In this document: positions 1 to 16,404 of the stretch, in pieces
Layout: every line of letters starts with the position of its first letter
Position numbering within the stretch: the first letter of the stretch is position 1
DNA from: Paracoccaceae bacterium
Lineage (GTDB): Bacteria > Pseudomonadota > Alphaproteobacteria > Rhodobacterales > Rhodobacteraceae
DNA length: 64,000 bases
Direction of reading: 5' to 3'
Assembly (NCBI GenBank): GCA_022843025.1
Contig: JALHOL010000003.1
Location: 1-64,000 of the forward strand
Program-made: the position numbers and the translations under genes
The notes under the pieces: generated by a model
Told to the model about the DNA's origin: nothing
Database searches by the model: none
Seen by the model: the letters and a program-made list of their open reading frames with translations, nothing else

Positions 1-97
1 CGCACCCTCCAGGTGATCCATGAAACGCGCCCCTCGCAGCCGTCAACGCCATGATTTATATGCGAAATATCACGATTACGACAGCGAAATCAGCGAC

Positions 98-235
98 TTA
101 CTTGGAGAATGTGGGGTCATCAAATCCCGCGCGGCGCAGGTGACCTGTCAGATAGGCCACCCAAGCGGGGGGCCAGTTGCCTGCGATTTCGGCCCCGCCA
201 GAGTGATAGTTCGGGTGGATAAAGACGATCCGCAT
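98..235 (-). pseudogene. bchE: 5' remnant of bchE (oxygen-independent Mg-protoporphyrin monomethyl ester cyclase)
   Basis: Reading the minus strand from an ATG at 235 gives 45 codons before TAA at 98-100. The peptide starts [19 protein letters not shown] and continues [21 protein letters not shown], the characteristic N-terminus of BchE, a radical-SAM/B12 cyclase of over 500 residues. Similarity stops after GFDD, followed by four unrelated residues and the stop. Nothing further left on this strand (1-97) resembles BchE, so the rest of the gene is deleted. The position, same strand and downstream of ppsR, is where intact bchE lies in Rhodobacter sphaeroides. The promoter region (236-412) still holds PpsR- and FnrL-type sites. 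The remnant may survive as a short leader ORF for whatever gene lies further left. Confidence 0.85.
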
Positions 236-252
236 CACGGCCCCCTGATCAG

Positions 253-270
253 TGTAAATCAGAGTTGACA
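253..270. promoter_or_regulatory. PpsR (CrtJ) box upstream of bchE remnant
   Basis: TGT at 253-255 and ACA at 268-270 are separated by exactly 12 bases, which fits the PpsR/CrtJ consensus TGT-N12-ACA. The box lies 18 bases upstream of the bchE remnant ATG. In relatives such boxes repress bacteriochlorophyll genes under oxygen or light. Confidence 0.7.
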
Positions 271-289
271 GTTTTTGCGGGTGGCAGCC

Positions 290-303
290 TTGACGTATGT
301 CAA
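290..303. promoter_or_regulatory. FnrL-type box upstream of bchE remnant
   Basis: The sequence TTGACGTATGTCAA has perfect arms TTGAC and GTCAA around a 4-base spacer. It matches the degenerate FnrL consensus TTGA(T/C)-N4-(A/G)TCAA. It lies 55 bases upstream of the remnant ATG. FnrL activates bchE under low oxygen in Rhodobacter, so this looks like retained anaerobic control of a gene that is gone. Confidence 0.55.
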
Positions 304-412
304 ATCCGCCAAATGCCGTGCGGAATTTCAGAAGATCATCCGTAGAAACTTGGGCGGAAAGGCGATCAATTCCGGTGCGCCAGAGATCCTGCGCAAGCTG
401 GAATTGACGGGA

Positions 413-1828
413 TTATTCGCCATCCTTGTTCAGCAAGCCATATTTGCGCAGCTTCACGTAAAGCGACTGGCGGCTGAGGCTGAGCATTTCGGCAGCGGCA
501 ACACGGTTGTTGCGGGTGAGTTCCAGCGCCGTTTCGATACACATCTTTTCGATAACATCGGTCGTTTCCGACACGATATCCTTGAGCGTGCTGGACCCCA
601 CCAGTTCCATCCCATTGCGCACGCCGTCATCGGGTTGGCCAAAGGCCGGGCGGCGCAGAGTTTCCACCCGGCTGGCATCGCGCACGACAAGCACCAGCAC
701 CGGGCTGGGCCGATCGTTGAGCCATGTTGCCGAGATTTCCACGGCGATCTGGCCCATGAAATCGGTGGTCAGTCGCGTGGCATAAAGCCGAAGCTGGCCC
801 GTGCGTTTGACGTTGTCGAGCAGGACGCGCAGGTCCACCGCGCCGCGCGCCAAGAAATCGGTCAGCGACCGGCCCCGCACAGCGGCAATGTTGGCGGTGT
901 CGGTCAGATTGAGGAAGGCTTCGTTGGCGGCGCGGATGTTGCCATCGGAATCGGCGAAAACGATCCCGTCCACGCCTTCATGGTACAGGCGAGCCAGATT
1001 GTCGCCCAGCTCATCGCCGCCCAGCGTGCCGCGTTCGTTCGTATCCAGTTGGCACAGCAGAATGCGTTCACCGGCCGCACGAAACACGGTGGGGGTGACG
1101 AACATGCGTTTCTGCGAGCGGCGCGCCGTCAGTTCGATGGGGACAGAGCTTTCCGCAACCGCAAGATTTGCGAGGCTTTCCAGAAACTCGCCACGACGGC
1201 GGCCTTCGAATTCCTGCGCGACGGCCGTGCCGATCAGATCGGCCCGCACGCCCCCCAGAAGCAGCGCTGCAGCCGGGTTGATATCGGTGATCCGCCCCGA
1301 AGACATGGACACCATCAGCACCGGATCGCGCGACACTTCCATAAGCACGCGATAACGCGTGTCCATCTCGCGTTGGGTTTCGTAATCCCGCTCCAGCGCC
1401 AGTTGCGCCTGCACCAGTTGCTGCTGCACCTCGGCAATCGGGCGCAGGTCGCGCCCCATCATCAGGATCGAGTCATCCGACCCGATTCTGTGCAGCGAGT
1501 AGCGAACCGGGAATTCCCAGTTCGCCTCATCCACATGGTTAAGCTCAACCGCTGTGCCGCCGTGGCGCGCGCCCTGCATTTCGTTCAAGCGGGCATCCAG
1601 CTTGCGCAGGCTTTCGGCTGTCAGCACATCGCGAAGCTGGCTCCCCTCCCAATCGGTGAGTTGGCCAAAGCTGCGGTGTTGCGGGTTCACGATGACGGAA
1701 ATGATGCGCCGCGACGGAGCAATCAACAACGCAAGGTCGGACGCGGTCGCGATGATCTCGCTCAGGAGATCGGGCGCGATCAGCGGCAACTTCCCGCCAT
1801 TGAGCAAATGTCTACCGTCCGTCGTCAC
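413..1828 (-). CDS. ppsR: PpsR/CrtJ redox- and light-responsive repressor of photosynthesis genes
   Basis: The 471-residue product matches PpsR throughout (usual length about 465). It has an N-terminal PAS-like region, a Q-linker segment (LRPIAEVQQQLVQAQLALER), two central PAS domains and a C-terminal Fis-type helix-turn-helix ending in RNNRVAAAEMLSLSRQSLYV. Cysteines occur in the last PAS-proximal segment (ILLCQLD) and just before the HTH (EKMCIETALEL), matching the redox-active pair of the family. PpsR binds TGT-N12-ACA boxes and represses bch, crt and puc genes in oxygen. The start is a GTG preceded by GGAAAGAG. It follows ppaA by about 50 bases and is probably co-transcribed with it. At least four of its boxes are present in this window. 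Confidence 0.95.
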   Translation of the reverse strand: MTTDGRHLLNGGKLPLIAPDLLSEIIATASDLALLIAPSRRIISVIVNPQHRSFGQLTDWEGSQLRDVLTAESLRKLDARLNEMQGARHGGTAVELNHVDEANWEFPVRYSLHRIGSDDSILMMGRDLRPIAEVQQQLVQAQLALERDYETQREMDTRYRVLMEVSRDPVLMVSMSSGRITDINPAAALLLGGVRADLIGTAVAQEFEGRRRGEFLESLANLAVAESSVPIELTARRSQKRMFVTPTVFRAAGERILLCQLDTNERGTLGGDELGDNLARLYHEGVDGIVFADSDGNIRAANEAFLNLTDTANIAAVRGRSLTDFLARGAVDLRVLLDNVKRTGQLRLYATRLTTDFMGQIAVEISATWLNDRPSPVLVLVVRDASRVETLRRPAFGQPDDGVRNGMELVGSSTLKDIVSETTDVIEKMCIETALELTRNNRVAAAEMLSLSRQSLYVKLRKYGLLNKDGE

Positions 1829-1878
1829 ACTCTTTCCGATCCCGAGCCAAGCCCCGAGGGGCGAAGGCCTCGTCAGGG

Positions 1879-2670
1879 TTAACTCAGTTCCAAGACCGGT
1901 GACCGACCGACAGAGATACCCAGTGCCTCGAGAGCATGAGAAATATCGTTTGTCACCACATCGGCACCTGTCAACCGTACTACATCTTCGGCTTCATTAA
2001 GGATGGCACCGCCAATTGCCACCATCAATCTGCCCCTAGTGGCATCTTTAAGCGATTTTATCAGCTTACGGCAAGTTTCAAGCCTGCTTTGGCAGGTTAC
2101 AGAGATCATCGCCCCATCGAATGAGCGATCTGCGACAAATTTCGACAACTGTGAAAGCTCGGGCGCGATCTGAAGGGAAACTGACACCCCCATGCGACGC
2201 AAACGCCCCGCAAGCACCATGGTTCCCAGCGAGTGCTGTTCACCTTGCGGCAACAGAACAAGGACGGTCGGCCCGTCCGTCTGCCCCAGCGCATCTGCCG
2301 ACCAAGCGGCACCCAGTTCACGCAGGATGGCCTGAAGGCGTGCGACGCCCATCGTGACCCCTGCAAAGCTAAGTTGATCGTCTTCCCAGGCGGTGCCCAG
2401 ACGCCGCGCCACTTCGGGGATGTAATGATCCGCCATGGCCGAGGCCGAGATTCGGGCGCGCTTGAATTCAGGCTTGATCACATCCAGCGCGTTGAGGTTT
2501 GCAGTCGTCACCGCATCGAACAGACGCTGGATGAGGATTTCGCGAAGGCCCGCCTCATCCGCGCCATCGCGCGCGACGAGTTTTGCGACGACCTGAGCGG
2601 CGAATTTCGTCACGCCGCATACTGGGCTTGCCGTATCGTGCGCCGACCCGTGATGCGCTTCATGGTACAT
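1879..2670 (-). CDS. ppaA: PpaA/AerR cobalamin-binding photosynthesis regulator
   Basis: This 263-residue protein has a C-terminal SCHIC/B12-binding domain. The motif PQGEQHSLG places a histidine at residue 146, equivalent to the cobalamin ligand described for AerR. It is known in relatives as an antirepressor that modulates PpsR/CrtJ according to light and B12. The start chosen is ATG 2670, preceded by GGAG six bases upstream. A TTG four codons earlier is in frame but lacks a ribosome site. It is divergent from bchF and shares a control region (2671-2985) with PpsR- and FnrL-like boxes. Confidence 0.93.
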   Translation of the reverse strand: MYHEAHHGSAHDTASPVCGVTKFAAQVVAKLVARDGADEAGLREILIQRLFDAVTTANLNALDVIKPEFKRARISASAMADHYIPEVARRLGTAWEDDQLSFAGVTMGVARLQAILRELGAAWSADALGQTDGPTVLVLLPQGEQHSLGTMVLAGRLRRMGVSVSLQIAPELSQLSKFVADRSFDGAMISVTCQSRLETCRKLIKSLKDATRGRLMVAIGGAILNEAEDVVRLTGADVVTNDISHALEALGISVGRSPVLELS

Positions 2671-2765
2671 ATCCGGCTCCAAAGGCCCCCCGCAGGCCGC
2701 CGCGACAAGAGGCTACCCGCCCCTCAAAAACATTGCAAATCCAGTGTCGACCTTTGATTTCGGAT

Positions 2766-2783
2766 TGTCAAAGCAAATTGACA
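2766..2783. promoter_or_regulatory. PpsR box 1 in ppaA-bchF control region
   Basis: TGT (2766-2768), 12 bases, ACA (2781-2783). The box lies 96 bases upstream of the ppaA ATG and 200 bases upstream of bchF. Confidence 0.7.
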
Positions 2784-2810
2784 CATTCGGCGGAAAGAAA
2801 AATCTCACCC

Positions 2811-2824
2811 CTGATCCAGATCAG
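2811..2824. promoter_or_regulatory. FnrL/FixK-like box in ppaA-bchF control region
   Basis: CTGATCCAGATCAG is a 6-2-6 inverted repeat with the core TGAT-CCAG-ATCA of the anaerobox TTGAT-N4-ATCAA. Only the outermost base on each side deviates. It sits between the two PpsR boxes. Confidence 0.4.
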
Positions 2825-2908
2825 TGTTTACGCGAAAATGCCAATAAAATAAGCGGTTTCTCGGCGGCAACCACCACCCTAGCCCAAGATTGACACCCCT
2901 GCAAAATG

Positions 2909-2948
2909 TGTAAGTTTTGGTTGACACTTCGGCCTTCGTCGCTAACCT
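2909..2948 (+). promoter_or_regulatory. bchF promoter with overlapping PpsR box 2
   Basis: A second TGT-N12-ACA box spans 2909-2926. Its last six bases (TTGACA, 2921-2926) form a perfect -35 hexamer, and a weak -10 (TAACCT, 2943-2948) follows after 16 bases. PpsR binding here would block RNA polymerase directly at the superoperon promoter. Confidence 0.6.
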
Positions 2949-2985
2949 TCAAACAGCGAGGAGCCGAAAGGAGAGGCGTCTGCCG

Positions 2986-6335
<3,350 letters not shown>

Positions 6336-6346
<11 letters not shown>

Positions 6347-9300
6347 ACGCTTTGCATCGCCGGAAGAGATGACTGCGCCCGTCAAGGGCGATGGGGTCTA
6401 TCGTTTCGTGATCGTCACGCTTGACGCGCACGCGGCCGGCCCTGCTGCACGTGTTGCCCCTGCCCTTGTGAAGGATTTTCCCGGGATTCAGGTTTCTGTC
6501 CACGCCGCCGCAGAATGGGCCGAAAACCCTGCGGCACTGGCGCGGGCCAAGGCCGATGTCCGGGCCGCGGATTTCGTGGTCGCGAACCTGCTGTTCATCG
6601 AGGAACATATCACCGCCATCATCGACGACCTGCGCTTTGCACGGGAAAATGCCGATGCCTTTGTCGGCGTGATCGCGGATCCAGCGGTGGTGAAGCTGAC
6701 GAAGATGGGCGACTTGGACATGTCCAAGCCTGCCTCGGCCGCGATGCAGCTTTTGAAGAAATTGCGTGGATCGGGGCCGCCGTCGGGCGGTTCGGGCGAA
6801 AAGCAGATGAAGATGCTGCGCCGCCTGCCCAAGATCCTGCGATTCCTGCCCGGCAAGGCGCAGGACTTGCGTGCCTGGTTCCTGTCGATGCAGTACTGGC
6901 TGGGCGGGTCTGACGACAATATCGAACAGATGATCCGTTATCTGGTGTCTCGTTACTCGGCCAACCGCAACTGGAATGCGGTTTCGGCCAAACCCCCGGT
7001 CGACTATCCGGATGTGGGCTTGTACCACCCGGATTTGAAAACGCGCATCACGACGAACCCGGCGGACCTCCCCCGCCCCGAGGGTGCGACGGCGACCGTG
7101 GGGCTTCTAATGTTGCGGTCCTATGTTCTGGCGTCAGATACAGCTCATTATGACACGGTCATCCGGTCGTTCGAGGCGAAGGGCATTGCCGTGCGTGCGG
7201 CCTTTGCCGGTGGTCTGGACGGACGGCCCGCGATTGACGCCTATTTTAAGGGCCAGATCGACACGATGGTATCGCTGACCGGGTTTAGCCTGGTGGGTGG
7301 CCCGGCCTATAATGACAGCCCCGCAGCAGTGGCTGCGCTGGAAGAGTTGGACGTGCCCTATATCGCGGCGCATCCGCTGGAGTTTCAGACGCTGGGGCAA
7401 TGGGGGGCATCCGGTGGCGGGCTTGGCCCGGTGGAAACCACCATGCTGATCGCCCTGCCGGAGATTGACGGCGCGACCAATCCCACGGTCTTTGCCGGGC
7501 GGCATGATCTGAACGGCTGTTCGGGCTGCGCCCGGAAGTGCCAGCCGTCGAGCGCGGAATCGCTGACAACGCGCGCAATGGCCCCCTGCTTTGAACGGAT
7601 CGCGGCGCTGGTCGACAAGACCGCGCGCCTTGCGCATCTGCGCCGGTCGGATGTGGCCAAGCGCAAGGTGGCAGTGATCCTGTACGGCTTTCCGCCCAAT
7701 GCCGGGGCAGCCGGAACGGCGGCCTATCTTGGCGTGTTCGAAAGCCTTTTCAATACGTTGCACGCCATGGCGGATGAGGGTTATGACCTGACTCCCCCCG
7801 CCACGGTGGATGATCTGCGCGAGGCGGTGATGGGCGGGTCGGCGCGCATGTATGGCCAGCCGGCCAATGTGCATTGCATCGTGCCTGCGGCGGAGATCGT
7901 GGCGCGGTCGCGCTGGCTGTCGGATGTGGAAAAGGCCTGGGGGCCTGCGCCGGGTCGCCTGCAATCGGATGGGCGCGGCGTGATGGTGCTGGGCCGGCAG
8001 TTCGGAAATGTCTTCGTCGGCCTGCAACCCGTATTCGGCTATGAGGGCGACCCGATGCGGTTGCTGTTTGAAAAGGGTTTTGCTCCAACCCATGCCTTCA
8101 CCACCTTTTACCGCTGGCTGCGCGAGGATTTCGGGGCGGATGCCTTGCTGCATTTCGGGATGCATGGCGCGCTGGAATTCATGCCGGGCAAGCAGGCAGG
8201 CGCGTCGGAAACCTGCTGGCCTGACCGGCTGATCGGCAATTTGCCGAATATCTATCTTTACGCGTCGAACAACCCGTCCGAGGCGACGCTGGCCAAGCGC
8301 CGGTCGAATGCGGTGACGATCACCCACCTGACCCCGCCCTTGGCGCAATCGGGCCTGTACAAGGGCCTGCTGGATTTGAAGGATACGCTGACGCGCTGGC
8401 GGCAGGCCGATCCGGACAGCCCGGAACAGGATGACCTGCTGCTGCTGATCCGCGAACAGGCGGCGGTGGTTGATCTGGATGCGACCGATCCTGAGACGCT
8501 TTGGGTCAAGCTTCTGGAAACCGAAGGGGCGCTGATCCCGGACGGCCTGCATGTGCTGGGCCGCCCGATGGGGGCCAATGAGCGGCGCGATTACATCAAC
8601 CTCATCGGCGCGACCGGAGCCGAGGCCGAGGCGCTGGATGCCAAACTGCAGGCGATGACCGAAATTCCTGCGCTGCTGCGCGCACTTGGCGGGCATTTCA
8701 TCAGCCCTGTTCCAGGTGGCGATCTGTTGCGCAGCACGGCTGTGCTGCCAACCGGGCGCAATATTCATGCCTTTGATCCGTTCCGGATGCCCACTGCGTT
8801 TGCACTGCGCGATGGTGCGGCGCAGGCCCAGCGTCTGCTAGATACCCACCCCACCCTGCCGCGCACGGTTGCGCTGGTGTTGTGGGGATCGGACAACATC
8901 AAATCCGATGGCGGGCCGCTGGCGCAGGCGCTTGCGCTGATGGGGACGCGCCCGCGCTTTGACCATTACGGCAGGCTGTGTGGCGCGGACCTGATCCCGC
9001 TGGCGGAACTTGGCCGCCCACGCATCGACGTTGTGATGACGCTGTCGGGCATCTTCCGCGACCTGCTGCCGCTGCAAACGCGAATGTTGGCCGAGGCCGC
9101 GTGGAAATGCGCCACAGCCGAGGATGAGCCGCTATCGCAGAACTTCATCCGCGCCCATGCGCTGGCTTATGCCGAAGAGATGGGCGTCGACATGGATACC
9201 GCGGCACTGCGCGTGTTTTCCAATGCCGAAGGGGCCTATGGATCGAACGTCAACATCCTCGTGGGCAGCAGTGCCTTTGGGGAAGAGGACGAATTGGCCG

Positions 9301-9932
9301 ACGCCTATGAGAACCGCAAATCCTTTGCCTATAGCCGCAATGGCAAGCCTGTGCAGAACGCCGCGCTGCTGCAAAAGGCCCTGAAGGATGTCGATCTGGC
9401 CTATCAGAACCTGGAAAGCGTCGAACTGGGTGTGACCACGGTCGACCAGTATTTCGACACGCTGGGTGGCATCGCCCGCGCTGTGAAGCGCGCGCGCGGC
9501 GGGCAGGAAACGCCGGTCTATATCGGCGATCAGACGCGCGGTGGTGGCACTGTGCGGACGCTGAAGGATCAGATCGCGCTGGAAACCCGGTCGCGCAGCC
9601 TGAACCCCAAGTATTTCGAGGGCCTTCTGCGGCATGGCGCGGAAGGTGTGCGTCAGATCGAGGCGCAGGTGACCAACACGCTGGGCTGGTCGGCCACCAC
9701 ATCACAGGTCGACCCATGGGTCTATCAGCGCCTGTCGGAAACCTTTGTGCTGGACGAGGTGATGCGCCGCCGTCTGGCCGCGCTGAACCCCGAAGCATCG
9801 AACCGCATGGCGCAACGCCTGCTGGAAGCATCCGACCGGAACTATTGGCAACCCGATGCCGAAACGCTCGCCGCGTTGCAACGCGCTGCGGATGAGCTTG
9901 AGGATCGTCTCGAAGGGATCGCAGCGGAATGA
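6336..9932 (+). CDS. bchH: Magnesium chelatase subunit H
   Basis: The 1198-residue porphyrin-binding subunit of Mg-chelatase, which with BchI and BchD (not in this window) inserts Mg into protoporphyrin IX. Length and sequence match the BchH/CobN family, including the N-terminal [14 protein letters not shown] and the conserved [19 protein letters not shown] region. The start chosen is ATG 6336 (MRDERF), 11 bases inside bchB; an in-frame ATG at 6318 is possible. Cysteines in [12 protein letters not shown] (about residues 405-416) could bind a metal or cluster, as noted in some BchH proteins. Confidence 0.96.
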
Positions 9933-9957
9933 CCCATGCGCATGCCCGTGGATTTGA

Positions 9958-10902
<945 letters not shown>

Positions 10903-10904
10903 TC

Positions 10905-11573
10905 ATGAGCGACTATTCCGCCACCCGCGACCGGGTCGAAGACTATTTCGACCGCAGCGCCACCACCGTGTGGGAGCGACTGACTTCGGACGCGCCGGTC
11001 AGCCGCATCCGCCAGACGGTGCGCGAAGGGCGTGATCGCATGCGTGCGATCATGCTGTCGCGCCTGCCCGACGATCTGCGCGGCTGCCGGGTGCTTGATG
11101 CGGGGTGCGGCACGGGGCTGATGACGGCGGACCTCGCGGCGCGCGGGGCAGATGTGGTGGCGGTGGATATCTCGCCGCAGTTGATAACCATAGCCGAGGC
11201 GCGGCTGTCCGAGGGGTTGAAACCCCGCGTCACCTTTGCCGCAGGCGATATGACCTGCGCCAGCCATGGCCGGTTCGATTTCGTGGTGGCGATGGACAGC
11301 CTGATCTATTACCGCACCGCCGACATTGCCGCAGCGCTGGCCAAGGTCGGCGCGCGGACGGCGGACCGCGTCGTGTTCACCGTGGCCCCGCGCACGCCTT
11401 TCCTTATGACCTTCTTCACGCTGGGCAAGGCCTTCCCGCGCGCGGACCGGTCCCCCACCATGATCCCGCAAGATTGGCGGCATCTGGCCCGCGAAACGGC
11501 TGGCAAGGTGAGCCGGGTGGAGCGGGTCAGCCGTGGTTTCTATATTTCGGAATGTCTGGAGTATCGGCCGTGA
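10905..11573 (+). CDS. bchM: Mg-protoporphyrin IX O-methyltransferase
   Basis: The 222-residue SAM-dependent methyltransferase methylates the ring C propionate of Mg-protoporphyrin IX, making the substrate of the cyclase. The SAM-binding motif LDAGCGTGLMTADLA lies at about residues 64-78, followed by the acidic strand VVAVDISPQ. Start ATG 10905 is two bases after the bchL stop. A TTG at 10899 is in frame but less likely. It overlaps lhaA by 4 bases (GTGA). Confidence 0.94.
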   Translation: MSDYSATRDRVEDYFDRSATTVWERLTSDAPVSRIRQTVREGRDRMRAIMLSRLPDDLRGCRVLDAGCGTGLMTADLAARGADVVAVDISPQLITIAEARLSEGLKPRVTFAAGDMTCASHGRFDFVVAMDSLIYYRTADIAAALAKVGARTADRVVFTVAPRTPFLMTFFTLGKAFPRADRSPTMIPQDWRHLARETAGKVSRVERVSRGFYISECLEYRP

Positions 11574-13018
11574 TAATCCGGAAGAAAGACCTGCAGAAAT
11601 TTTCGGCCGCCTGGCTGCCCTTTGCGGATGTGGCATCCGACGGGCTGCCGATGGCGCAGATTTTGCGGCTGTCGCTGTTTCAGGTGTCGGTCGGGATGGC
11701 GCAGGTGCTGCTTTTGGGCACGCTGAACCGGGTGATGATCGTGGAACTGTCGGTTCCGGCGATGATCGTGGCGGCGATGATCGCAATTCCCGTGCTGGTT
11801 GCCCCGTTCCGCGCCTTTTTGGGCCATCGGTCTGATACCTATCGTTCTGCGCTTGGCTGGAAGCGGGTTCCCTACCTGTGGTTCGGTTCGCTGTGGCAGA
11901 TGGGCGGTCTGGCCGTGATGCCAACCGCACTGCTGGTGCTGTCAGGTGACGTCACGTTTGAGGTGCCGTTTGCGGGCGAAGTGCTGGCCGCTGTCGCCTT
12001 TTTGATGACCGGTCTTGGGATGCACATGACGCAAACCGCAGGGCTTGCACTTGCGTGTGACAGGGCCAGCGATGCGACACGGCCCCGCGTCGTGGCCTTG
12101 CTTTATGTGGCGAACCTGCTGGGCATGGGGGTTTCGGCGCTGGCCATCGGCTGGCTGTTGCAGAACTTCCAACCGCTGTTGCTGGTTCAGGTCGTGCAGG
12201 GCTGCGCGCTTGCGACGTTGGTTCTGAACCTGATCGCGCTGTGGAAACAGGAACGTGTCCAGCCGATGACCAAGGCCGAGCGTGATGCACCGCGCCCGCG
12301 CTTTGCCGATGCCTGGACCGATCTGATGGCGGGCGGCACGGCAGGGCGGTTGCTGGTGGTGGTGATGCTGGGAACGCTCGGCTTCAACATGCAGGACGTG
12401 CTGCTGGAACCCTATGGCGGCGAAATCCTTGGGCTGAGCGTATCGCAGACCACGATGTTGACCGCGATGTCGGCAGCCGGGGCGCTGTGCGGGTTCGTGC
12501 TGGCGGCGCGCTGGCTGGCCCGTGGGACAGATCCGATCCGCATGGCGGCAGCGGGGATTCTGGCCGGGGTGCTGGCCTTCTCCTGTGTGATCTTTGCGGC
12601 CCCGCTCGGATCGACGGCGCTGTTCTTTGCGGGTGCCGGGCTGATCGGTTTTGGCGGCGGGCTGTTTGCCATCGCCACGCTAACGGTTGCGATGACCATG
12701 CCGGTCGGCGGTCTTGCCGGAGCGGGGATCGCCCTGGGTGCCTGGGGCGCCGCGCAGGCCACGGCTTATGGCGTATCGATCTTCATGGGGGGCACGATCC
12801 GCGATGTGGTCGGCCATCTGGCAAGCTCGGGCCGTCTGGGCCCTGCGCTGAGCGATCCGTCGCTTGGTTACTCTTTCGTTTACCACCTCGAAATCGGGCT
12901 GCTCTTTGCAACCCTTGCCGTGCTCGGACCGATGGTCCGGTTGCGGCCTCTTGCCGACCAGAACCAACCGCAGACTTCCGGCGATGGGCGCCTGCGTATT
13001 GCCGAATTCCCCACCTGA
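11570..13018 (+). CDS. lhaA: LhaA, LH1 assembly factor of the PucC/BCD transporter family
   Basis: The 482-residue membrane protein belongs to the PucC family within the MFS fold, with about 12 hydrophobic segments. Its position between bchM and puhA identifies it as LhaA (ORF F1696), needed for LH1 assembly. The motif [20 protein letters not shown] near residues 38-57 is shared with PucC at 48 kb. The start is GTG 11570, with GGAG eight bases upstream and the GTG overlapping the bchM stop. The puhA promoter usually lies within lhaA in this group. Confidence 0.92.
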
Positions 13019-13034
13019 CCCGGAGGACCATCAC

Positions 13035-13805
13035 ATGGTAGGTGTCAACTTTTTTGGAAACTTCGATCTAGCCAGCCTTTCCATCTGGCTGTTCTGGGGC
13101 TTCTTCGCCCTGCTGATCTTCTATCTGCAAACCGAAAACATGCGTGAAGGCTATCCGCTGGAGATGGAGGACGGCTCGCCCGCCCCGAACCAGGGCCCCT
13201 TCCCCGTGCCCAAGCCGAAGACGTTCCACCTGCCGCATGGCAAGGGTGACGTGACGGTTCCGTCCTCGGCCAATGAGGCCGCGCATCGCCGCGCCGATCT
13301 GGCACTGGCACGCACGGCGGTTTCGGAAGGCTTCCCCCATGCGCCGACCGGCAATGCGCTGGTCGATGGTGTCGGCCCTGCATCCTGGGTGCCGCGGCGC
13401 GACGAGCCGGAACTGGATGGCCACGGCCATGCCAAGATCGTGCCGATGGGCCATGCCAAGGGCTTTGTCGTCAGCGCCGGGCGCGATCCGCGCGGACTGC
13501 CGGTGCAGGCTGCCGATAACGAAGTGGTCGGCCGCGTGTCGGACATGTGGGTGGATGCCCCGGAACAGCTGGTTCGGTATCTGGAGATCGAGCTGAATTC
13601 GGGTGGCAAGCGCCTTGTGCCGATGACGCTTGCCCGCATCTGGGCTGACCGCGTGCGTGTCCGCGCCCTTGCGTCGGACAGCTTTGACGCAATCCCGCAG
13701 ACCAAATCCATGACCACCGTTACCAAGCTCGAGGAAGATAAGATCTCGGGCTATGTCGGCGGCGGTTGGATGTATGACGCCGACAAACGCGTGTTCGGTC
13801 TCTGA
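13035..13805 (+). CDS. puhA: Photosynthetic reaction centre H subunit
   Basis: The 256-residue H subunit has one N-terminal membrane helix (about residues 12-31, [20 protein letters not shown]) and a cytoplasmic PRC-barrel domain, and caps the L/M subunits. Conserved features include MREGYPLE after the helix and the C-terminal [17 protein letters not shown] strong GGAGG lies at 13022-13026. The L and M genes (pufLM) are not in this window. A GC-rich hairpin follows the gene. Confidence 0.97.
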
Positions 13806-13815
13806 ATCAAGAAGG

Positions 13816-13841
13816 GGGGCGGCCTGCGCCCGGGCCGCCCC
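13816..13841 (+). terminator. puhA-puhB intercistronic hairpin
   Basis: Arms GGGGCGGCC (13816-13824) and GGCCGCCCC (13833-13841) pair perfectly around an 8-base loop. No U tract follows, so it more likely stabilises or attenuates mRNA, giving more puhA than downstream message, than acts as a full terminator. Confidence 0.6.
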
Positions 13842-13869
13842 GTCTTACCCCAACACGGAGGGTCTGAAG

Positions 13870-14517
13870 ATGTCAGACCATGATGATTTCGCTTTCGACG
13901 TGGCGCCGGGCATTCCCGCGCCGCTCCCCAAGGGGGAAGAAGTTCTCTGGCAAGGCCGCCCCGATACAGGCGCGCTTGCCCGTGAGGCCTTTAAGATCCG
14001 CTGGATCGCCGGCTACATGGCGCTGATCGTGCTGTGGAAAGCGGGGCTGGGTTTGGCCGAAGGGGGTGTCCTGCTCTCGCTCGCGCGCGGTCTGCCCTAT
14101 CTGGTGCTGGCCTTTGCGGCTGTAGGCGTGGTCTGGCTGCTGGCCTGGGCACAGGCCCGTGCCACGGTTTACACCATCACCTCGTCGCGGGTGCTGATGA
14201 AGATCGGGGCGGCGCTGTCTGTCACTTACAACATCCCGCTGACGCAGGTTGCCACCGCGCGGGCCGAGATCGGCCCCAAGGGCACCGGCACCATCGCGAT
14301 GGAAACGCTTGGCGAAACCCGGCTGGCCTATGTCGCGCTTTGGCCGCATCTGCGGCCCGGCCATGTGAAGAAGACCCAACCCGCCCTGCGTTGTGTGCCA
14401 GATGCCGCCAAGGTGGCGCGCATCCTGGCCGAAGCCGCCGAAAGCCGGTTGGCAATGCCTGTCATCTCGCGCAGCAGCCCTGCCCATCTGGGCGCGGATG
14501 CCGTGGCTGCGGAATGA
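13870..14517 (+). CDS. puhB: PuhB reaction-centre assembly protein
   Basis: The 215-residue protein has two or three hydrophobic segments (about residues 45-100) and a bPH2-like domain with ATVYTITSSRVLMKIGAAL. Its size and position directly after puhA match PuhB, a membrane protein needed for reaction-centre assembly in Rhodobacter capsulatus. It starts at ATG 13870 behind GGAGGGTCTGAAG. Confidence 0.9.
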   Translation: MSDHDDFAFDVAPGIPAPLPKGEEVLWQGRPDTGALAREAFKIRWIAGYMALIVLWKAGLGLAEGGVLLSLARGLPYLVLAFAAVGVVWLLAWAQARATVYTITSSRVLMKIGAALSVTYNIPLTQVATARAEIGPKGTGTIAMETLGETRLAYVALWPHLRPGHVKKTQPALRCVPDAAKVARILAEAAESRLAMPVISRSSPAHLGADAVAAE

Positions 14518-14530
14518 GGGGGAGAACAGC

Positions 14531-14989
14531 ATGAACACCCCTCGTCAACCTGCGCTTCACAACCAGAAGCCCGAAATGATCCCCACGGTTCTGCTGCGCG
14601 GCATGTTTGCGCTGGCCGTGACATCGCTTGTCATCACGGCGGCGGCCGTGGTGTCAGACCGCCCGACCGTGGGACAACCGAAAGTTTCCGAGGTGGTCGC
14701 ATCGCGTGCGATCATCCTGGAAGGGCTAGATGCCCAATCCGTGGTCGTGCGCAATGTCGATGGCACCCTGCTGGCGGACCTGCCGCATGGTGGCTTCATC
14801 ACGGTGATCCAGAACGCCATGGCGCGCGAGCGGCTGGTGCACCGGATCGAAGGCAATCCGCCCATGAACATCGTTCGCTATGCCAATGGTCGCCTTGTCG
14901 CAGAAGACCCCGCCACAGGATGGAGCGCCGAGCTTTATGCCTTTGGTGGAGAAAACAAAGCCGCATTTGAACGGCTGCTAGAGCAATAA
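14531..14989 (+). CDS. puhC: PuhC photosynthetic complex assembly protein
   Basis: This 152-residue protein has one membrane anchor at about residues 20-42 and a periplasmic domain containing EGLDAQSVVVRNVDGTLLAD. Length and order (puhA-puhB-puhC) identify PuhC, which supports assembly or organisation of the RC-LH1 complex. It follows puhB by 13 bases with GGGGGAGAAC as ribosome site. Confidence 0.88.
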   Translation: MNTPRQPALHNQKPEMIPTVLLRGMFALAVTSLVITAAAVVSDRPTVGQPKVSEVVASRAIILEGLDAQSVVVRNVDGTLLADLPHGGFITVIQNAMARERLVHRIEGNPPMNIVRYANGRLVAEDPATGWSAELYAFGGENKAAFERLLEQ

Positions 14990-15001
14990 GGGAATCGAAA
15001 A

Positions 15002-15298
15002 ATGGGAATCTTCACGAAAGCAAAGGAACAGGTGCCCTGCACCGTCGAGGTGAGTCATCGCTTCGAAAGCCTGCATGCACATGTGCGTTTCAACAACGGC
15101 GCCGTGGTCCATCCCGGTGATGAGGTTCTTGTCCATGGCACGCCTGTGATGGCGGCCTATGGCGAGGTCGTCATCGAGGACCGCACCGCCACGATCACCC
15201 GCGCAACCTGGCTTGAACGCCAATGGACCCGCCTGACCGGCGATCTGGAGTTCATGGAGCTGTGCGAATTCTCCTTCTCGGACGAGGTGACGCTATGA
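15002..15298 (+). CDS. Conserved photosynthesis-cluster protein of unknown function
   Basis: This 98-residue protein, beginning MGIFTKAKEQVPCTVEVSH, lies between puhC and acsF and overlaps acsF by 4 bases (ATGA), which argues that it is translated with the cyclase. It has no signal peptide or membrane segment and looks like a small beta-rich soluble protein (alternating VLVHGTPVMAAYGEVVIEDRT). It may be the puhD/orf55-position gene or a cyclase accessory factor; the sequence alone does not decide. Confidence 0.75.
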   Translation: MGIFTKAKEQVPCTVEVSHRFESLHAHVRFNNGAVVHPGDEVLVHGTPVMAAYGEVVIEDRTATITRATWLERQWTRLTGDLEFMELCEFSFSDEVTL

Positions 15299-16404
15299 AC
15301 GCCCATGCACAACCACAGCACGACACCACCCATGGCGAGTTGCACGCCGAAATGTCGGATGCCTTCGACACGACAGCGATGGCCACGGAAACCACGCTGC
15401 TGAACCCACGCTTCTACACCACCGACTTTGACGAGATGGACCGCATCGACGTCACCCCGGTCCGCGCGGAGTGGGACAAGCTGATCAGCCAGATGAAAAG
15501 CGACCCGAACCGCGGGCATTTCAAGAAGAACGCGGAATGGGACGCGATCGACTGGAAGGCGATGGACCCTGCCCTGAGGGCCGAGTTGATCGACTTTCTG
15601 GTATCGTCCTGCACGGCCGAGTTTTCGGGTTGCGTGCTCTACAAGGAAATGAAGCGGCGCGGCAACAACCCCGATATCTGCGAGCTGTTCAACTACATGG
15701 CCCGCGACGAGGCCCGCCATGCCGGCTTCATCAACGATGCCCTGCGCGAAGCGGGTGTTGCAGTGAACCTTGGCTTTCTGACCAAGGCGAAGAAGTACAC
15801 CTATTTCCGCCCGAAGTTCATCTACTACGCGACCTACCTTTCGGAAAAGATCGGCTACGCGCGGTACATCACCATCTATCGCCACCTTGAGGCGCATCCC
15901 GAGCATCGGATCCATCCGATTTTCAAATGGTTCCGGGAATGGTGCAATGACGAGTTCAGCCATGGCGAAGCCTTTGCCCTGCTGATGCGCACCGATCCCA
16001 AGCTGACCCAGTCCTTCGCCAACAAGCTGTGGATCCGGTTCTTCCTGACGGCGGTCTATTCGACCATGTGGGTGCGCGATCACGCGCGGGTGGAGTTCCA
16101 CAACGCGCTGGGGATCGACATCGACTGGTACGACCAAGAGGTCTATCGCAAGACCTCGGCCATCGCGCGGCAGGTCTTTCCGGTAGAGCTGGACATCGAC
16201 CATCCGCGCTGGCTGCCCGGTCTGCGCAAGATGGACAGCGCGATGCGCGACATGGACAAGGCCAAGCGCAAAGGCGGCCTGTCGGGCTGGGTTGCGCATA
16301 AGGCCGCGACGGTGCGGGCCATGACGGCCTTTGCCGGACTTTATCTGATCCCGGTCAAGAACCTGACTCCCCCGGCGCAAGTCCGGATGGAGCCGTCGTA
16401 TTGA
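15295..16404 (+). CDS. acsF: Aerobic Mg-protoporphyrin IX monomethyl ester (oxidative) cyclase
   Basis: The 369-residue ferritin-like diiron enzyme builds the isocyclic ring E of bacteriochlorophyll using O2. Likely iron ligands are in SCTAEFSGC (E109), YMARDEARHAGF (E139, H142) and a second pair in EWCNDEFSHGEAF (about residues 223-235). With bchE reduced to a remnant in this window, AcsF is the only intact cyclase seen here, which would make bacteriochlorophyll synthesis oxygen-dependent. The start is the ATG of the ATGA overlap with the preceding gene. Confidence 0.96.
   Translation: MNAHAQPQHDTTHGELHAEMSDAFDTTAMATETTLLNPRFYTTDFDEMDRIDVTPVRAEWDKLISQMKSDPNRGHFKKNAEWDAIDWKAMDPALRAELIDFLVSSCTAEFSGCVLYKEMKRRGNNPDICELFNYMARDEARHAGFINDALREAGVAVNLGFLTKAKKYTYFRPKFIYYATYLSEKIGYARYITIYRHLEAHPEHRIHPIFKWFREWCNDEFSHGEAFALLMRTDPKLTQSFANKLWIRFFLTAVYSTMWVRDHARVEFHNALGIDIDWYDQEVYRKTSAIARQVFPVELDIDHPRWLPGLRKMDSAMRDMDKAKRKGGLSGWVAHKAATVRAMTAFAGLYLIPVKNLTPPAQVRMEPSY

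Follow-up and report, generated by a model that had tools for sequence, protein, structure and literature searches.

A mobile element divides bchE in a genome that retains an intact acsF

The analyzed window is a stretch of 64,000 nucleotides (G000:C3:1-64000), the first base of which is also the first base of contig C3. The source genome (G000) consists of 22 contigs, the smallest of 2543 bases; several contig ends share overlaps of exactly 119 bases, a pattern like that of short-read graph assemblies, and the assembly appears to be a metagenome bin. At the left edge of the window, an open reading frame of 45 residues (98-235, minus strand; 46 residues from the GTG at 238) starts with the N terminus of BchE, and a profile search of the genome matched TIGR02026 positions 1-43 at C3:104-232 (60 bits, E 8.9e-16). 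Alignment to the uninterrupted gene of G208, a single-contig genome with the same species label, assigned 116-235 on the minus strand to bchE codons 1-40, the 5' part of the interrupted gene. The last five codons (PTFSK) and the stop (98-115, minus strand) lie past an element boundary after 115 and derive from the insertion sequence ISPme1. Upstream of bchE lies ppsR/crtJ (413-1828, minus strand; TIGR02040, 533.8 bits), adjoined by a gene for a B12-binding protein (1879-2682, minus strand; domain score 35.7 bits, CarH match below cut-off) that stands, we presume, where aerR/ppaA would be. The gene for the oxygen-dependent cyclase, acsF, is intact (15223-16404, plus strand; TIGR02029 positions 4-335 of 337, 508.1 bits against a cut-off of 192.5) and was the only match in the genome. 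The sequence-only reading of this window had described a bchE remnant at 98-235 beside an intact acsF: the BchE N terminus and the complete acsF stood, but only 116-235 is bchE.

The rest of bchE was found at the start of contig C10 (C10:110-1507), matching TIGR02026 positions 35-497 without stops; its 779 bits alone exceeded the cut-off of 481.35, and full-length profile coverage was reached only by combining the C3 and C10 pieces. It is followed on C10 by bchJ, bchG, a PUCC-family transporter gene, and bchP. When the C3 and C10 flanks were joined and the second copy of a duplicated ATGAC was removed, they yielded one in-phase frame of 552 residues from the ATG with a single terminal stop, which differed from the uninterrupted BchE of G208 by 4 mismatches in 552 residues (99.3% identical). 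No portion of bchE is thus missing. In G208, bchE is uninterrupted and collinear with both C3 and C10, at 98.1% identity over window positions 116-15855 and 97.2 to 97.8% over C10:116-6000. bchE in G000 is split into two parts by a mobile element, its other half lying on another contig and not deleted. A whole-genome search for another copy, as proposed by the sequence-only reading, returned two TIGR02026 matches, namely the two halves, and no second, intact bchE. The remnant described by that reading is right insofar as the gene is interrupted and no other copy was found in the genome, but the distal part is intact on C10. bchJ and bchG, which it had expected farther to the left, do follow bchE on C10; what lies directly to the left is ISPme1 at a contig end.

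The left end of ISPme1 occupies window positions 1-115, where it is cut by the contig end, and over those 115 bases shows 100% identity to ISPme1 copies on plasmids. It comprises the terminal 15 bases of the left inverted repeat (101-115, minus strand; comparison of element ends) and the first seven transposase codons (1-21, minus strand; MDHLEGA), the rest of the transposase gene falling outside C3. The transposase starts at the expected distance from the left end, the annotated coding-sequence start in plasmid copy L076 corresponding to window base 21; this explains the ATG at 21 that had earlier been taken for a possible gene start. Window positions 1-119 matched 200 plasmid records, with an identity of 99% or more in 23; among the 20 plasmid matches listed, 15 were annotated as ISPme1-family transposase and 2 as IS1380 transposase, and 3 had no annotation there. 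The element measured 1671 bp in eight of nine plasmid copies and 1670 bp in the remaining one. Its left end abuts bchE codon 40, with the transposase oriented the same way as bchE. Because the window begins at a contig end, the apparent truncation of bchE reflects a repeated element breaking the assembly, which corrects a tempting gene-loss reading: such an element at a contig edge makes a gene seem to end.

The same ISPme1 left end was also found at one end of contigs C8, C1, and C7, and ISPme1 right ends only at the ends of C11, C5, and C7; the first 119 bases of C10 (C10:1-119, here the C10 head) differ from these. A separate copy spanning the ends of C8 and C5 has both true ends and a 5-bp duplication, CTGAT. 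C7 opens with an ISPme1 left end (G000:C7:1-225), and C6 crosses the same site without it (G000:C6:1-130; L004, L028), so that a single assembly seems to hold this site in both states, filled and empty, a hint of recent or ongoing transposition. In G208, the three ISPme1 sites for which a flank pair or a crossing contig allowed mapping (C3/C10, C8/C5, and C6/C7) are all empty. The mixed state of the C7 site would also fit an insertion in bchE carried by just a fraction of the population, many cells retaining a working bchE; the search of the assembly gave no uninterrupted copy of the gene, however, and we regard this alternative as unlikely.

The insertion is bracketed by a 5-bp target duplication, ATGAC, with its left copy at window positions 116-120 (minus strand) and its right copy at C10:120-124. 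On the G208 map, the C3 flank extends to 1996239, and the start of the C10 flank falls at 1996237 or before it; the flanks overlap in (G)ATGAC, with T where G208 has C. Among the nine plasmid ISPme1 copies, an adjacent 5-bp duplication was present in three and absent from six (L204, L205, L207, L208, L209, and L076), as would be expected if many sit in longer modules or have recombined. At the far boundary in bchE, ISPme1's own right inverted repeat was not found, as it would be for a plain insertion sequence. Instead, with the register fixed by the duplication, the last 15 bases of the C10 head showed a weak match to the right repeat (8 of 15 bases, with the final G), a level that random 15-mers of matched composition reached in 0.9% of cases and 15-mers from the window in 2.8%. 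Over the 14 registers tried, the one a single base further on scored 9 and the other twelve 1 to 6. In the related element ISEcp1, of the same family, the available excerpt of PMC12116815 describes right ends that match at 3 to 12 bases and finish in G, along with 5-bp repeats.

The origin of the C10 head was sought at both the DNA and peptide levels. As DNA, it had no plasmid match at E 1e-5 and no phage match at 0.1, and neither genome contigs nor viral contigs contained an exact 24-mer from it; with E allowed up to 10, only 3 plasmid records were returned (best E 4). Against the 19 genus genomes, it matched itself and four scraps of 21 to 26 bases, and within G000 nothing outside C10 except scraps. 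As peptides, two frames were without any Pfam family; against plasmids, one frame gave chance-level matches (best E 5), the second none, and the third one at E 0.9. Against 198 family genomes, the peptides matched themselves and had two weak matches (E 0.0014 and 0.0024), each from one genome, of which the former falls inside the carotenoid hydratase gene crtC. This hints at a possible crtC origin; G000's own crtC lies at C10:14316-15446, and its likeness to the C10 head is just a few residues. Separately, the small contig C11 (L052, G000:C11:1-6425) opens with an ISPme1 right end; it encodes a COX1-family subunit, around which the genes look like norCBQD, by our reading. Both 130-base end pieces of C11 had no match in G208; C11 may be foreign or mobile, and it could also be a passenger, possibly that of the bchE insertion.

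Taken together, bchE was probably interrupted after codon 40 by a single transposition of an ISPme1-led transposable module. ISPme1 is described as mobilizing DNA that adjoins its 3' end through a misrecognized right end (PMC9330008, in excerpt), and its transposable modules (TMos) are also described in PMC3281130 (in excerpt). By such a route, the ISPme1 transposase would have used the element's true left end together with a sequence resembling the right end in the DNA behind the insertion sequence, and this pairing would have brought a passenger segment into bchE. The ISPme1 left end and the C10 head lie on separate contigs, and the middle of the insertion is unassembled. A plain ISPme1 insertion, with the C10 head being an assembly chimera, would account for a head that matches nothing in the genome beyond scraps nor anything in the collections searched, and chimeric ends can arise in short-read assembly. 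Yet the switch from foreign sequence to bchE in C10 coincides exactly with the position expected from a 5-bp duplication of the C3 flank, as it rarely would in a random chimera, and in length the C10 head is close to the insertion sequence pieces on other contig ends (113 to 119 bases); we consider a chimera quite improbable. A clean 3' deletion with the promoter kept, as the sequence-only reading had it, suits the window alone, where 40 codons give way to unrelated sequence, but is barely credible given a distal bchE that survives intact on C10 and reads on in phase; 97 to 98% identity and collinearity with G208 oppose derivation of C10 from another organism. Deletion of bchE was rejected on the strength of the C10 part and its in-phase join.

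What remains of the anaerobic cyclase can be read against the domain structure of the G208 protein, in which the B12-binding domain spans residues 14-132 (profile positions 5-120); a sequence search of solved structures gave no match at 1e-10. The C10 part of bchE, read from its first ATG, retains B12-binding profile positions 38-120, about a quarter being gone. With a remnant peptide of at most 45 residues and a distal part lacking about a quarter of this profile, the anaerobic cyclase should be inactive, and we infer from this domain loss that BchE activity would be lost. Ring E closure should then rest on AcsF and oxygen, and dependence of phototrophy on oxygen, as judged from gene content, is a reasonable inference. 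Most likely, bchE was knocked out recently by insertion and only the oxygen-dependent route of ring closure is left. The intact acsF is no proof of pigment synthesis here, because a Rhodobacter sphaeroides bchE deletion strain with acsF had no detectable bacteriochlorophyll a at the aerations tested; the pigment appeared only once a cbb3 oxidase gene had been deleted as well, a mixed answer on life with AcsF alone (PMC4944227).

Across the genus, an uninterrupted bchE match over profile positions 1-497 was found in 16 of 18 other genomes, the exceptions being G207 (none) and G211 (weak matches only), and acsF was found in 17 of 19, including G000, and was absent from G203 and G207. G211 thus had acsF but no bchE over the cut-off, G203 had bchE but no acsF, and the 1.5-Mb G207 had neither; absence of a gene is uncertain in G203 and G211, both assemblies being fragmented. 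A broader set of 96 loci combined the best 80 from 238 relatives with 16 genus matches, partly on the same contigs, and left aside the two pieces from G000 and four weak matches; this choice of top-ranking relatives keeps the survey from being a census. At 94 of these 96 loci, bchE runs in one frame from no later than residue 8 to at least residue 470. At L143 and L150, both from binned genomes, bchE is broken by a frame change (L143:2617-2721 and L150:2430-2561), near residues 35-62 and residues 43-44, respectively, possibly through sequencing or assembly error. Among the listed titles of papers on bchE loss, acsF, insertion sequences, and pseudogenes, none reported an insertion sequence in bchE.

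The genes beyond the insertion invite a more tentative proposal. ISPme1 contains a strong outward promoter, according to the excerpt available of PMC9330008, and bchJ, bchG, and bchP, intact on C10, might be read from it. The module would then have silenced bchE while its promoter keeps these three genes on, with phototrophy surviving only with oxygen and the population caught midway in a step away from two cyclases, a scenario that we put forward as doubtful. The earlier suggestion that the bchE promoter was itself preserved for the leftward genes found no evidence, and the insertion separates that promoter from them. If the interruption is confirmed, G000 and its uninterrupted conspecific would form a natural experiment on whether a Rhodobacter-like phototroph can live on AcsF alone.

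The locus represents a natural interruption of bchE by an already known mechanism, with an uninterrupted conspecific for comparison, and it resembles known systems in part. As in the R. sphaeroides bchE deletion strain, acsF is present and bchE is lost, but that strain carries a laboratory deletion (PMC4944227, in excerpt), whereas the interruption here is natural. ISEcp1/ISEc9 shares with this insertion its family, a 5-bp duplication, and, putatively, a weak right-end look-alike ending in G (PMC12116815, in excerpt); the element, hosts, and passenger are different. Closest in form are the ISPme1 TMos (IS1380 family), which likewise have an ISPme1 left end, a right end that is not that of ISPme1, a 5-bp duplication, and, as proposed here, adjoining DNA on the 3' side of the transposase; unlike in those modules, the target here is a chromosomal photosynthesis gene, and the putative module is spread over separate contigs.
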